Source: Acidobacteriota bacterium
GTDB taxonomy: Bacteria > Acidobacteriota > Terriglobia > Acidiferrales > UBA7541
Assembly: GCA_003223325.1 (NCBI GenBank)
Contig: QHYS01000124.1
Location: 1,803-45,452, forward strand
Direction of reading: 5' to 3'
Length of the DNA stretch: 43,650 nt
Shown piece after piece: positions 38,905-43,650 of this stretch (the stretch's first letter is position 1; every line of letters starts with the position of its first letter). The notes under the pieces were generated by a model, which had not been told where the DNA came from, did no database searches, and saw only the letters and a program-made list of their open reading frames with translations. The position numbers and the translations under genes are program-made.

Positions 38905-39954
38905 CTACTTGGGCTGGAATTCAGGATCGTAGGTGCCTGGAGCTCCGCGAGAACCGAGTCGACTGGTCCAATACTCGATCACATAGTAGGTGTTAAGCCC
39001 GATCGTTTGATAGACCTCTTTATAGATGGGAGCATAGACGCTCGGATCCATGCCCAAGCTGCCGTTCTCCTTGAGTCGCGAAAGCGCGTCCTTAATCGTC
39101 TTGTAATACAAGAGAGTTATCCCGGAAGGATGATTCAGGATCTTCCAACCCATGGCATTGAGTTCGGCCGCGGTGAAGTTAGGCCTCTCGGGCATACCGT
39201 GCTCAGCGTTGGCAAAGTTGAGGGGGCCCTGGATCTCTTTCGGAATTCGCTTGGTTTCTTCGACGGTCCTCGGGAATAGCAAGACGTAATCAGCCCCTGC
39301 CTGGAAGAAAAGATTGGACCGGCGCACGCATTCGGAGAAGCCGTGAGTCTGCAAGGACGCAGTGCAGGCACCGACAACGAAATCTGGATCGCGTCGCGCT
39401 TGAACCGCGTAGCGGATCTTTTCCACCATCTCCTCGGTCGCAATCGTTTCTGTTTTGGCGTCCATATAATAGTGGAAGCGTTTCGGGCAAACCTGATCAT
39501 CGACGCAAAGACCGGCGGCCCCAGCGTGCTCGAGCACACGAACCGTGTGGAAAACATGAGCGGGCTCGCCGAATCCACCGCCGGCGTCGACCAAAAGGGG
39601 GATGTTTACTGTGTTCGTGATCCTGTTAGTGGCTCGAGCCAGGTCATCGAGGCTCAAGGCAGCTTCAACCTCGCAGGTAACTACGCCCAATCCAGGGCCG
39701 GACAAATTGACACAACGGAAGCCTACCGACTCAGCGATTCGTGCCGTGAGAGGGTCGTGAATACCGGGGGAATCGATGACGCCCGGGCTTCTAAGCATCT
39801 CTCGTAGTATGGTGGTCATTCGTTTTGGTGAACCGGGCCGAATACCCGCTTCCCCCTGGGGACGAGCCAAAGCTGGGAAAGAGGTTGCCGTTAAGCCGCC
39901 CAGAGCACCTAAGGACGTGTTTTTCGCAAAGTCGCGCCGCGATAGCCTCGCCAA
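38905..39954 (-). CDS. Tat-exported isocitrate lyase/PEP mutase-like protein
   Basis: 349 residues. A twin-arginine signal (LSRRDFAKNTSLGALGG) precedes a TIM barrel of the isocitrate lyase/PEP mutase superfamily, with PGIHDPLTARIAESVGFRCV and RATNRITNTVNIPLLVDAGG. The usual DADTGYG motif reads DAGGGFG (123-129), the EDQxxPKRCGH segment reads DDQVCPKRFHY (152-162), and the ARTDA segment reads GACTAS (195-200). A metal-binding Asp and a substrate Arg are therefore changed, so classical activity is doubtful. Export is also unusual for this fold. The start is TTG 39954, fixed by GAGGAGG five bases upstream; an earlier TTG at 40014 lacks this. It sits between two YVTN genes. A changed reaction or a binding role is more likely than C-C or C-P bond cleavage. 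Confidence 0.85.
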   Translation of the reverse strand: MARLSRRDFAKNTSLGALGGLTATSFPALARPQGEAGIRPGSPKRMTTILREMLRSPGVIDSPGIHDPLTARIAESVGFRCVNLSGPGLGVVTCEVEAALSLDDLARATNRITNTVNIPLLVDAGGGFGEPAHVFHTVRVLEHAGAAGLCVDDQVCPKRFHYYMDAKTETIATEEMVEKIRYAVQARRDPDFVVGACTASLQTHGFSECVRRSNLFFQAGADYVLLFPRTVEETKRIPKEIQGPLNFANAEHGMPERPNFTAAELNAMGWKILNHPSGITLLYYKTIKDALSRLKENGSLGMDPSVYAPIYKEVYQTIGLNTYYVIEYWTSRLGSRGAPGTYDPEFQPK

Positions 39955-39968
39955 TTTGTCCTCCTCAT

Positions 39969-39989
39969 AACGGGAAACGATATCCCGTT
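39969..39989. repeat. Short inverted repeat before TTG start
   Basis: AACGGG at 39969-39974 and CCCGTT at 39984-39989 form a stem with a nine-base loop, three bases upstream of the ribosome binding site of the PEP-mutase-like gene, inside a 72-base gap between two genes. It could shield the site or mark RNA processing; it may also be chance. Confidence 0.25.
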
Positions 39990-40026
39990 TAGCCCAGCCT
40001 GCTGTTACCTTCAAAATAAGCAGGCC

Positions 40027-41088
40027 TCATTGGATTTGGTACTCAAGAATTTGGGCGTTCGTAGTATCACGTTGGGGCACCGCCACATAGTACCGTCCGA
40101 GCGTAGACACTAACTCCGCAGTCCGGGCCCCAGGTCCGCTGGGGACCTGGCCGAGGGATACATAGTGGTCAGAGTCTAGTTGTTTGTACAGGTCGATCGA
40201 GCCATCTCCGGCAGGGCAGGCGGCGTAAAGGCGCTTCGTCTTTGCATCAAAGGCCAGATCATCGACGCCTTGATTGATGGGAAGCGCCTGGAGTTCTTTG
40301 CCCGTGGCTGTGTCAAATACGACGATGTGCCCGCTCCTGCAACCCACAAATAAACGGTGATGCGGTTCATCTAGCGCCAACGTTACCGCGGTCTTCCCTA
40401 GTGTAATGGGCCAGGTGGTGATAACTCTGCGAGCTACGCGATCAATGACCACGATGCGATTCTTGGCCACGTCAGTTTCATACAATCTAGGTCCGGATGC
40501 TTCAATGGTCATGCCATCGAGGCCCTCGCTGTCAACCGTTAGTGAGCCAAGGTTCTCGCCACTCGTCGTGTTAATAACGTTGATCGTGGAATAAGCCATC
40601 TTCGCGTCCTTACCGCCATTCTCTACGTAAAGCAACTTGGTTGTAGGATCATAGATACTTGGGTCTGCGTCGGGAAGAAGAGGCACACTTTTGATCAAGT
40701 CATAGGTTTTCCCGTCAAAAATCTTCAGCGCTCCTCCGTCTCCACCATCGGTGACGTAAAGGCGGTTTAGGTCTTCCCGATAGAGCAGATGGTGCGGAAT
40801 CTCGATTCCCGGGATGGTGTGGATGAGCTCGCGGGTCTTCAAATCGAAAACCATAACCGCTTTGGCTCCCTGAGGGGTAGTAAACAATCGCTGCCCTTTG
40901 AGGTCCACAAGGAGGTGGTCAAAACGCCCCATCACGTTACGGGGGAAATCGTATCTGCCCACCAGCTTAAGCGGTGTTCCGCTCGAAGCCTTGCCCGGAG
41001 CGGAAGTCTTTTGCTGCCGTGCAAAAATCGAGGCTGACAGCAACACCAAGATTCCAGAGGCCAATAGCAAAATGACGCTTCTCTTCAC
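40027..41088 (-). CDS. Secreted YVTN beta-propeller protein (paralog C)
   Basis: 353 residues with a signal peptide (VILLLASGILVLLSASIFA) and YVTN blades: FDHLLVDLKGQRLFTTPQG, VMVFDLKTRELIHTIPGIE, RLYVTDGGDGGALKIFDGKT, LYVENGGKDAKMAYSTINV, RLFVGCRSGHIVVFDTATG and RLYAACPAGDGSIDLYKQLD. Closest in wording to paralog D at 42165 (shared HRLFVGCRS, DGGTLE/DSEGLD region and DPDHYQSLG/DSDHYVSLG). It starts with GTG 41088, which overlaps the TGA of the AtuA-like gene as GTGA, so translation is probably coupled. Predicted periplasmic. Confidence 0.88.
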   Translation of the reverse strand: MKRSVILLLASGILVLLSASIFARQQKTSAPGKASSGTPLKLVGRYDFPRNVMGRFDHLLVDLKGQRLFTTPQGAKAVMVFDLKTRELIHTIPGIEIPHHLLYREDLNRLYVTDGGDGGALKIFDGKTYDLIKSVPLLPDADPSIYDPTTKLLYVENGGKDAKMAYSTINVINTTSGENLGSLTVDSEGLDGMTIEASGPRLYETDVAKNRIVVIDRVARRVITTWPITLGKTAVTLALDEPHHRLFVGCRSGHIVVFDTATGKELQALPINQGVDDLAFDAKTKRLYAACPAGDGSIDLYKQLDSDHYVSLGQVPSGPGARTAELVSTLGRYYVAVPQRDTTNAQILEYQIQ

Positions 41089-41579
41089 TTGATCATCTCC
41101 TCGATTTCATTTCGGAGCTTCATGTTTCTTTCGGCTCCCCGTATGGTCTGTTCGTCCAGTAGCCGCGCAGGTCGGAGCGGCGTGATGCGTCCGGCAAGGT
41201 AGGCCTTGAGAAGGTCCTTTTCAACCTCACCGCTGATGGCCGCTACCTTAAAATGCCAGTTGTTGACGCTGGCCAATTCTCGAACGATCCCGAGCATTCG
41301 TTCCAGATGAGGTTTCCCTCCAGCAAATCCAGCTGTCCCAATAAGCAATGGGATACCCGCCGCTAGGGCTTCCCGCATCATCAATTCCGTATCGCGCCTG
41401 ATCGCCTCAGAAGAAGCCTTTGTTTTTCCGGAACCGAGATAATAAGGACCGGCGTCTGTGGAACCGGCATCGCAGCCGATGAAGTCCGCGCCCGCCCGGA
41501 CAGCTCGAGAAAGGCTCTCTTCGAGAAATCCTGATCCCACGCCACCTGTGGCAGCGACCGCATTGACTGTGGCTTTCAT
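41085..41579 (-). CDS. AtuA/DUF1446-like protein, apparently C-terminally truncated
   Basis: 164 residues from ATG 41579, with ATVNAVAATGGVGSGFLEES, then GADFIGCDAGSTDAGPYYLG, PLLIGTAGFAGGKPHLERM and LDEQTIRGAERNMKLRNEIE. From memory these blocks match the N-terminal third of acyclic terpene utilisation AtuA / DUF1446 proteins, which run to about 440 residues. Here the frame stops after the first domain, just where the full family continues with its GADVVIAGR-type part, so the gene is probably a truncated or split form, or a natural short version. The start is uncertain (weak ribosome site; the frame is open to 41702). No signal peptide is present. Its stop overlaps the GTG of the YVTN gene. 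Confidence 0.55.
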   Translation of the reverse strand: MKATVNAVAATGGVGSGFLEESLSRAVRAGADFIGCDAGSTDAGPYYLGSGKTKASSEAIRRDTELMMREALAAGIPLLIGTAGFAGGKPHLERMLGIVRELASVNNWHFKVAAISGEVEKDLLKAYLAGRITPLRPARLLDEQTIRGAERNMKLRNEIEEMIK

Positions 41580-41877
41580 ACTTCGTGTTTTTGCCTCGAA
41601 GTCGAAGTTTATACGGCTGGCCACCAGTGTCCCGACTTTCCGCGTTATGACACGGCAACAAAAGAAGCGTTCAAGCGGCATACGGAGGCTGGACCTGGGC
41701 AACTCGATTTCGGCACAGGAATGGCTAGGAGGAATCTCAGGGTAGGTTTTAGATCCTCCGCCGGGGATTCATAGCTCACCGTAGGACACTCCGCGAGGTT
41801 ACGTTGAATATGTCGCGGAACATACCATCAGCGATCTAGATTTGACAAGTTCAGTTTCGATAGTGTGGGTTATCGCG

Positions 41878-41915
41878 CACCAAGTTGGTGCCCCGAATTC
41901 TGTCTAAGTTCGGGG
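41878..41915 (+). repeat. Two stem-loops before promoter A
   Basis: CACCAAGTTGGTG (41878-41890) is a near-perfect palindrome. It is directly followed by CCCCGAA (41891-41897) pairing with TTCGGGG (41909-41915) across 11 bases. They lie 22 bases before the -35 of promoter A in a divergent region, so they may be operator sites rather than a terminator. Copy B keeps a weaker form of the first. Confidence 0.4.
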
Positions 41916-41936
41916 CGTCGGGGCGTTCCTTTTTTC

Positions 41937-41965
41937 TTGACATTCGTTGCCATCGGGGATATTAC
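41937..41965 (+). promoter_or_regulatory. Sigma70-type promoter A
   Basis: TTGACA at 41937-41942 and TATTAC at 41960-41965 are separated by exactly 17 bases. This is a near-consensus sigma70 promoter, and the same hexamers and spacing occur in copy B. It is followed 85 bases later by a GGGGAGG ribosome site. It would drive the short leader frame and the YVTN gene at 42165. Confidence 0.75.
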
Positions 41966-42067
41966 GCGCCTCAAATCATAGGGTTTGGCCCGGTCCGTGC
42001 GTGTGTTGGATATCGGAAGGACCAGTGCAGCGATAAGGTTCATCGGCCCGTGGGGAGGTGGGTGGGT

Positions 42068-42133
42068 GTGAGAACGTTCAGGACCGGCAATACCAAGTCG
42101 GTTATACCCCAAGTCAAAGCCCTCTTGCATTGA
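42068..42133 (+). CDS. Short leader ORF or receptor 5' remnant
   Basis: A GTG with GGAGG nine bases upstream opens a 21-residue frame that contains RTFRTGNTKSVIPQV and ends in TGA 31 bases before the YVTN gene. Its first bases (AACG-TTCAG) can be aligned with the start of the TonB-receptor gene in copy B (AACGCTTTTCAG). It may be a leader peptide, or the broken beginning of a former receptor gene. Confidence 0.35.
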   Translation: MRTFRTGNTKSVIPQVKALLH

Positions 42134-42164
42134 ATTTAGTTGATGGGAGATCAAGGAGCTTATC

Positions 42165-43175
42165 GTGAGAAACCACGCTGTCTTGTCTATACTTCTTGTC
42201 CTCACCTTAGCAGGCTGGGTTAACTCTCAGTCGGCTTCACCGTTGGAGCTGGTGCGGACGATTTCGATGCCGGGCGTCACGGGACGCTTCGATGCCTTTG
42301 GCGTAGATGCGAAGGGTAATCGCCTGTTTGTCACTCCGCTCGACCATAAGGCCGTGGAAGTATATGACCTTAAAACCGGTAAGCTGATTCATAGCATTTC
42401 CGGGATTCAGAAAGCGCATGCAGTTCTCTATCGCGGCGATTTGGACAAGATCTTTGTCACCGACGGTCCCGATGGGGAGGTTAAGATTTTTGACGGGAAG
42501 AACTACGAGCTTGCCAAAGCCATTCGATCGCTCGCGGCACCCGACGGTATCCTCTATGATCCAGCTACGTATTACCTCTATGTGATTACGGGCGGTGAGA
42601 ACGCGAAGCTGGACTACTCTATAATCTCTGTCCTGGACACGAATAAAGAAGAACACGTCGGGGACATCCGAATTGATGGTGGCACGCTGGAGGAAATGCG
42701 CCTTGAAAAGTCGGGGCCCAGGCTCTTCGTTGTAAATCGAGAGAAAAACCGAATTGAGGTGCTGGACCGGAATAAGCACACGATTCTAACAAATTGGCCC
42801 CTCGCCCTCTGCAAAGTGCCAGTCGGCATGGCGTTTGACGAAGCGAATCACCGCCTATTTGTGGGTTGCCGCAGTGAGGTCATGGTCGCGCTCGATTCGA
42901 CATCGGGAAAGGAAATCACAACTATGCCAATCAGCAAAGGGGTCGATGACATGACCTTCGACGTAGCTACGAAGCGCATCTACATCGAGGCCAACACCGG
43001 TGCGATTGATATTTATAAGCAAAGTGACCCGGATCATTATCAATCGCTGGGAACAATTCCTATCGGGGTACCGGCGAAGCCGGGACTCCTCGTGTCTGAG
43101 CTGAGCCGATATTTTGTCGCGGTCCCGCAGCACGGCGATGTGGATGCCGCCATCCTGGAGTATGCGGTCCACTGA
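42165..43175 (+). CDS. Secreted YVTN beta-propeller protein (paralog D)
   Basis: 336 residues with a signal peptide (AVLSILLVLTLAGWVNSQ) and YVTN blades: FDAFGVDAKGNRLFVTPLDH, AVEVYDLKTGKLIHSISGIQ, KIFVTDGPDGEVKIFDGKN, RLFVVNREKNRIEVLDRNKH, HRLFVGCRSEVMVALDSTSG and RIYIEANTGAIDIYKQSD. It is the only one of the four paralogs on the plus strand. It starts with GTG at 42165, with GGAG six bases upstream. It is bracketed by leader copies A and B and precedes the TonB receptor, so the two products could work as a pair: a periplasmic or surface propeller and an importer. Confidence 0.88.
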   Translation: MRNHAVLSILLVLTLAGWVNSQSASPLELVRTISMPGVTGRFDAFGVDAKGNRLFVTPLDHKAVEVYDLKTGKLIHSISGIQKAHAVLYRGDLDKIFVTDGPDGEVKIFDGKNYELAKAIRSLAAPDGILYDPATYYLYVITGGENAKLDYSIISVLDTNKEEHVGDIRIDGGTLEEMRLEKSGPRLFVVNREKNRIEVLDRNKHTILTNWPLALCKVPVGMAFDEANHRLFVGCRSEVMVALDSTSGKEITTMPISKGVDDMTFDVATKRIYIEANTGAIDIYKQSDPDHYQSLGTIPIGVPAKPGLLVSELSRYFVAVPQHGDVDAAILEYAVH

Positions 43176-43180
43176 ATATC

Positions 43181-43440
43181 CAGTTTCGATAATTCAACGC
43201 TACCCTTTTAAAATTTGATCTAGGCGTTATCGTCTACCCAAGTTTGGTCTGTCCCTTCTCAGGGCGGTTCCGTTTTTCCTTGACATTCGTTTATATCAGG
43301 GATATTACCCGCCTCAAATCATAGTTTCTTGCCTGATAGGGATGTGGCGGTACTCGGGAATCTTAGTTTAAGGCAATCTGTAAGTCACCGACCTGTGGGG
43401 AGGTCGTCTTATGCCAGCCAACGCTTTTCAGACAAGGAGT
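43181..43440 (+). repeat. Leader direct repeat, copy B
   Basis: The second copy of the leader begins six bases after the stop of the YVTN gene and runs through promoter B into the first codons of the TonB-receptor gene. Its likeness to copy A is patchy, with conserved blocks at both ends and at the promoter. The conserved blocks keep nearly the same spacing as in copy A (about 92 versus 90 bases from -10 to GTGGGGAGG). Confidence 0.75.
43280..43308 (+). promoter_or_regulatory. Sigma70-type promoter B
   Basis: TTGACA at 43280-43285 and TATTAC at 43303-43308 with 17 bases between them repeat promoter A exactly in hexamers and spacing. It should drive the TonB-receptor gene, whose ATG is about 100 bases downstream, giving a leader of some 95 bases. 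Confidence 0.78.
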
Positions 43441-43650
43441 GGCGCTGTTCTCAGCGCGTTTCTGATTTTGGCCGTGGCTTTTCTGATGCTCTGGCAAACG
43501 CGGAGCTATGCGCAAGTCGTGGGCACGACGTTATCCGGCACGGTCACAGACGCGTCGGGCGCGGCCGTGCCGAATGCTCAGGTGTCGATCAAGAATACGG
43601 CCACGGCCGTAACACGCGGGGTTACGGCCGATTCGGTTGGATTTTACACG
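43411..43650 (+). CDS. TonB-dependent receptor, Oar-like, N-terminus only
   Basis: Eighty residues reach the window edge. After a signal peptide (AVLSAFLILAVAFLMLWQTR) comes TLSGTVTDASGAAVPNAQVS and TADSVGFYT, the start of a carboxypeptidase-regulatory-like domain. In acidobacterial genomes this combination opens TonB-dependent outer-membrane receptors of the Oar/CarboxypepD_reg type of about 1,100 residues. The plug and barrel lie outside the window, so the receptor call is an inference from the N-terminus. GGGGAGG seven bases before the ATG sets the start. It would be an outer-membrane importer for a large ligand such as a glycan or peptide. Confidence 0.75.
   Translation, partial: MPANAFQTRSGAVLSAFLILAVAFLMLWQTRSYAQVVGTTLSGTVTDASGAAVPNAQVSIKNTATAVTRGVTADSVGFYT

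Follow-up and report, generated by a model that had tools for sequence, protein, structure and literature searches.

The window, a stretch of 43,650 nucleotides comprising bases 1803-45452 of the 45,452-base contig C106, ends where the contig ends and stems from a fragmented 6.1-Mb assembly of a soil acidobacterium. Close to this end lies the gene Y42165 (42165..43175, + strand), which encodes a YncE-like (YVTN) seven-bladed propeller protein of 336 aa with a signal peptide. It is followed on the same strand by the start of a gene for a TonB-dependent receptor (CarboxypepD_reg; 43411..43650), which is cut by the contig end. On the opposite strand, the window carries the propeller gene Y37857 (37857..38876), whose family in relatives forms a divergent pair with the propeller of the receptor operon, a gene of the PEP mutase/isocitrate-lyase superfamily (38905..40014), which is found near this cluster in relatives, too, the paralogous propeller gene Y40027 (40027..41088; 50% to Y42165), and a truncated AtuA-like gene of 205 aa (41085..41702; full-length relative 481 aa). 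The repeat finder also listed an inverted repeat of 35 bp (40700-40734 and 42474-42508), which is due to the coding similarity of the opposed paralogs Y40027 and Y42165.

The best NCBIfam match of Y42165 is YncE, with 65.6 bits compared to a cut-off of 400 for the YncE equivalog NF052280; the gene product is YncE-like, not YncE. The full receptor of 1157 aa is encoded on contig C190 of the same assembly, which overlaps the contig end (43145-43650) over 506 bases with 98.6% identity and no gaps. This overlap is better explained by strain variation at the contig break than by a second copy of the locus, while it is possible that C190 represents a recent duplicate. The receptor shows matches to PF13620 (CarboxypepD_reg, 77.6 bits), PF07715 (plug, 30.0 bits), and PF25183 (OMP_b-brl_4 barrel, 604.9 bits), all above the Pfam cut-offs, and reaches 25.4 bits against the PQQ receptor PqqU, where the cut-off is 1200, so that the window pair falls outside both equivalog families. 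Beyond the receptor gene, C190 encodes a DUF5074-type propeller, followed by a convergent second receptor with its own propeller. In the whole genome, 86 receptor-like matches, corresponding to about 70 receptors, and 32 propeller matches were found. At least six propellers are located directly beside a receptor compared to about one expected, which is an excess of about six times by a rough count that assumes 5500 genes. As a side observation, an 18-kb contig of the same genome (L052, G000:C145) harbors approximately 10 propeller genes, none of them adjoining a receptor gene.

Both the propeller gene and the receptor gene are preceded by a leader on the + strand. Copy A (41869..42059), upstream of Y42165, comprises a sigma70-type promoter, a conserved block, a 5' UTR, and a vestigial receptor-type Shine-Dalgarno sequence; copy B (43226..43404) is located upstream of the receptor gene. 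The promoter TTGACA-17-TATTAC is present at 41937..41965 (A) and 43280..43308 (B), both on the + strand, and these are its only two occurrences in the window (0 expected from shuffles). Directly behind it, the block CGCCTCAAATCATAG occurs on the same strand at 41967..41981 and 43310..43324; it is identical at 15 of 15 positions and constitutes the longest identical run between the copies. The motif GTGGGGAGGT is found at 42050 (A) and 43395 (B), at distances of 90 and 92 bases, respectively, measured from the first base of the -10 hexamer. An earlier sequence-only reading had described these elements as two imperfect copies of a leader of about 240 bp and had proposed a pairwise alignment. The local alignment of 41869-42059 with 43226-43404 gave a score of 106, compared to 25.3 ± 3.5 (maximum 45) for 1000 dinucleotide shuffles, which bears out the two copies together with their common promoter, block, and spacing. 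The identity extends above chance beyond the hexamers, since for the stretch between CGCCTCAAATCATAG and the Shine-Dalgarno sequence none of 1000 shuffles was as good. Upstream of the -35 hexamers, where the 11-mer CAGTTTCGATA occurs at both 41852 and 43181, the similarity is marginal (52/1000 shuffles), and 3' of GTGGGGAGGT no similarity was detected (179/1000 shuffles). Thus, the solid part of the copies amounts to about 190 bp and not 240 bp. Judged by these alignments, A and B are diverged, old copies of one leader. A run of 15 identical bases is short for homologous recombination, and C190 still carries the end of Y42165; deletion of the propeller gene by recombination between the copies, as had been envisaged, is therefore possible in principle but unlikely.

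Copy B leads directly into the receptor gene, as had been read from the sequence, and its GGAGGT represents the receptor's own Shine-Dalgarno sequence, six bases 5' of the start codon ATG at 43411. In copy A, the GGAGGT is situated 100 bases 5' of the propeller gene, which has a Shine-Dalgarno sequence of its own (AAGGAG). Eight nucleotides behind the GGAGGT of copy A, there is a 21-codon GTG frame (42068..42133, + strand, stop at 42133), in which the sequence-only reading had seen a broken receptor start. This assignment had to be dropped: compared with the receptor start, the encoded peptide scores below the shuffle mean and shows no resemblance, and the DNA of the frame has no match elsewhere in the genome. 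Possibly the frame constitutes an upstream ORF, or it is nothing at all. Just 5' of promoter A, a hairpin (CCCCGAA-TTCTGTCTAAG-TTCGGGG, 41890-41916) is present, which is absent from copy B and from the leader of the congener G003.

For the occurrence of the leader in other organisms, as also suggested earlier, 89 genomes of the family were searched. Outside the window's genome (G000), the leader is present only in G003 (Acidobacteria bacterium isolate gp2 AA84; contig G003:C24, the same sequence as QHYQ01000048.1), one of three congeners (G001-G003), which places the window in an acidobacterium of subdivision 2. There it stands before an ortholog that is 87% identical to the receptor of the window. 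Among the other genera, only weak matches at chance level were found, in G019 and G081. The assembly of G003 has gaps, and the contig in question breaks off at the leader; the two-copy state is seen in the window's genome alone. The G003 promoter reads TTGACA-17-TATACG, and in all three leaders both hexamers are present at a spacing of 17 bp, within the 16-18 bp of a sigma70-type promoter, and conserved between the homologs. None of the leader RNAs has a match in Rfam, and since their predicted folding does not surpass that of shuffles (z = +0.7 to +1.7), the leader appears to be a plain, constitutive-looking sigma70-type leader with predicted promoter activity. The idea of a general receptor leader was rejected, as the regions 5' of 28 other receptor genes in this genome are different.

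The receptor gene of G003 is followed by an AtuA-like gene that is reduced to a short start, by a remnant of a DUF4387 gene, and by the ortholog of Y40027 (88%). In the window, Y40027 and the truncated AtuA-like gene lie beyond leader A and point in the opposite direction, the breakpoint between the two genomes being located just upstream of the AtuA-like gene, at about 41634. This different placement indicates that the segment has been rearranged between the two species. The AtuA-like and DUF4387 genes are being lost in both genomes.

With Y42165 alone as query, no comparable loci were retrieved from other acidobacteria, whereas an alignment of related propellers yielded 28 loci. The typical cluster consists of a divergent Y37857-type propeller gene, a Y40027/Y42165-type propeller gene, often an amidohydrolase gene, genes for an OmpR-type response regulator and a histidine kinase, and a receptor gene, the product of which is 51-57% identical to the receptor of the window. 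Often a DUF5074 propeller gene lies behind the receptor gene, and AtuA-like and PEP-mutase-like genes are found nearby. The order propeller-(amidohydrolase)-response regulator-kinase-receptor is conserved in at least 13 other acidobacteria, and in these a site of about 26 bp, TAAACnnAAATTAATnTTnnnTTAAG, is located before the propeller gene and again before the receptor gene. Locus-by-locus comparison of the two upstream regions gave the consensus (C)TAAACAGAAATTAATCTTGnnTTAAG, which can be read either as a near-palindrome (18 of 26 positions) or as TAA/TTAA-like repeats with a period of 11 bp. TTAA-like repeats at this distance are usual for OmpR-type regulators. Examples of site positions, among many others, are 5870 and 9183 in locus L099, 5907 and 9187 in L093, and G030:C75:43819 and 48597; two loci have a third site, located before a further propeller gene of the cluster.

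Among 399 sampled genomes of the class, the site occurs in 23 genomes with at most four copies each, whereas the pattern read backwards, which was used as a control, occurs in none. Same-strand site pairs 3.3-5 kb apart are present in 11 of the 399 genomes (0 for the reversed pattern), and in the annotated examples one site lies before the propeller gene and the other one before the receptor gene; loci L098 and L099 add two further genomes with paired sites. A response regulator with at least 63% identity to that of L099 is encoded in 26 of the 89 family genomes. The site is present in 17 of these 26 genomes but in only 1 of the 63 genomes without the regulator (Fisher's exact test, 6.5e-11, a value that is inflated by the relatedness among the genomes). 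Judging from this co-occurrence, the response regulator probably binds to the ~26-bp site. As the site on the receptor side extends over the final codons of the kinase gene, its conservation could be partly due to coding; in L099, however, this gene has 73 leucine codons, and the only TTA among them falls within the site, which speaks for a constraint beyond that of coding. In a search of the open-access literature, neither the site nor the regulon was encountered, and we know of no described regulon with such a site.

In the window, there is no such site within six mismatches, and G000-G003 contain neither the site nor a response regulator above 54% identity, the best homolog (54%) being encoded elsewhere in the window's genome. 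The arrangement of a two-component-controlled propeller-receptor operon, with regulator and kinase genes between the two genes and a site before both, is accordingly absent from the window. Three receptors of the genome, that of the window among them, are almost equally close co-orthologs of the relatives' receptor, and Y42165 has neither a close ortholog nor a firm place in the propeller trees. Strict orthology of the window locus with the relatives' cluster is therefore likely, but not proven. The propeller trees, which were meant to separate cassette duplication from capture, left Y42165 unplaced.

Overall, we consider it fairly probable that receptor and propeller form a pair under shared control and that in the lineage of the window, which has neither the sensor system nor its sites, both genes are driven by a copied sigma70-type leader. 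In the majority of relatives possessing the cluster, the OmpR-family two-component system encoded between the genes probably controls both of them via the repeated site. The genus of the window has neither the system nor the sites, and here both genes start with diverged leader copies, so that propeller and receptor would be transcribed in parallel from separate promoters. The direction of copying may have been from the receptor to the propeller gene, as suggested by the stranded Shine-Dalgarno sequence in copy A. The same two kinds of genes, at what seems to be one and the same cluster, are thus marked by a different cis-element in each of two sets of lineages, which is most simply accounted for if receptor and propeller have to be produced jointly. 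Thus, the earlier proposal of shared regulation gains support from the homologous leaders and from another common cis-site for the same genes in at least 13 relatives. More tentatively, and with somewhat less than even confidence, a single genus might have lost an ancestral two-component regulon that had one site each before the propeller operon and the receptor gene, and a duplicated constitutive leader might have taken over its function, the leader copy taking the place of the lost sites while co-expression survived.

It could also be that the leader copy is a local duplication accident without regulatory meaning, not very old, in which hexamers and block persist as a working sigma70 promoter. 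The conserved part consists mostly of promoter, start region, and Shine-Dalgarno sequence, while the intervening 5' UTR has diverged, and other receptors of this genome have TTGACAT promoters as well, both of which would fit such an accident. However, the block behind the -10 hexamer is identical throughout although its flanks differ, and relatives independently have a common site for the same gene pair; we therefore regard the accident as a rather unlikely though serious competitor. Slightly less credit is given to a tandem duplication of a leader-receptor unit, after which the first receptor was lost and its leader fused to the neighboring propeller gene. Such a history would explain why leader A retains the receptor's Shine-Dalgarno sequence at the same distance, and it would have ample material in a genome with about 70 receptors, many of them paired with propellers. 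But no receptor DNA or peptide is left between leader A and the propeller gene, and relatives have the propeller before the receptor without an extra receptor. The same two observations speak against the sequence-only idea that the propeller gene had inserted into a receptor copy or taken its place. A structured, riboswitch-like RNA controlling both genes, for which the length of the two 5' UTRs (about 85-190 nt) might speak, is largely refuted and highly improbable, as besides the missing Rfam match and the poor folding the UTRs of A, B, and G003 are of unequal length and have no common stem.

If control by a copied leader has indeed replaced the sensor system, the propeller would be a working partner of the receptor, and the pair would have survived a complete change of cis-element and regulator. 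Functionally uncharacterized TonB receptors and propeller proteins are encoded by the dozen in Acidobacteria, and a common control that is kept through a change of promoter and regulator would point to a functional receptor-propeller pair. The probable dedicated sensor system of the relatives and its DNA site would moreover offer a testable route to the presumed ligand, and the locus may serve as a case for studying regulatory rewiring with a co-expressed pair preserved.

Several known systems resemble parts of this picture. An expansion of diverged TonB receptor paralogs is known from Acidobacteria such as Ca. Solibacter (PMC3174227), and the genome of the window is similar in its large, diverged receptor family; that study deals with how many paralogs there are and how far they have diverged, and neither shared leaders nor propeller partners are among its subjects. 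Acidobacterial xoxF3 clusters contain YncE and a TonB receptor (PMC10875860), so that in the same phylum propeller and receptor are encoded together as in the window. In contrast to these clusters, no xoxF3 methanol dehydrogenase gene was identified beside the window pair, the neighbors of which are PEP-mutase-like, AtuA-like, and further propeller genes. The relatives' cluster is similar to OmpR/PhoB-family regulons with repeated sites, as regulator and kinase genes lie between the genes that carry the common site, unlike in the genus of the window, which is without the site. In E. coli (NC_000913), pqqU (yncD) and yncE likewise place a TonB-dependent receptor gene beside a gene for a YncE-like periplasmic propeller; there, the genes are divergent and share one intergenic region, whereas those of the window are in tandem with duplicated leaders. 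An arrangement as in E. coli is present elsewhere in the window's genome (L120, 4569-5751; G000:C147), where about 136 intergenic bases separate a divergently oriented pair of propeller and receptor genes.
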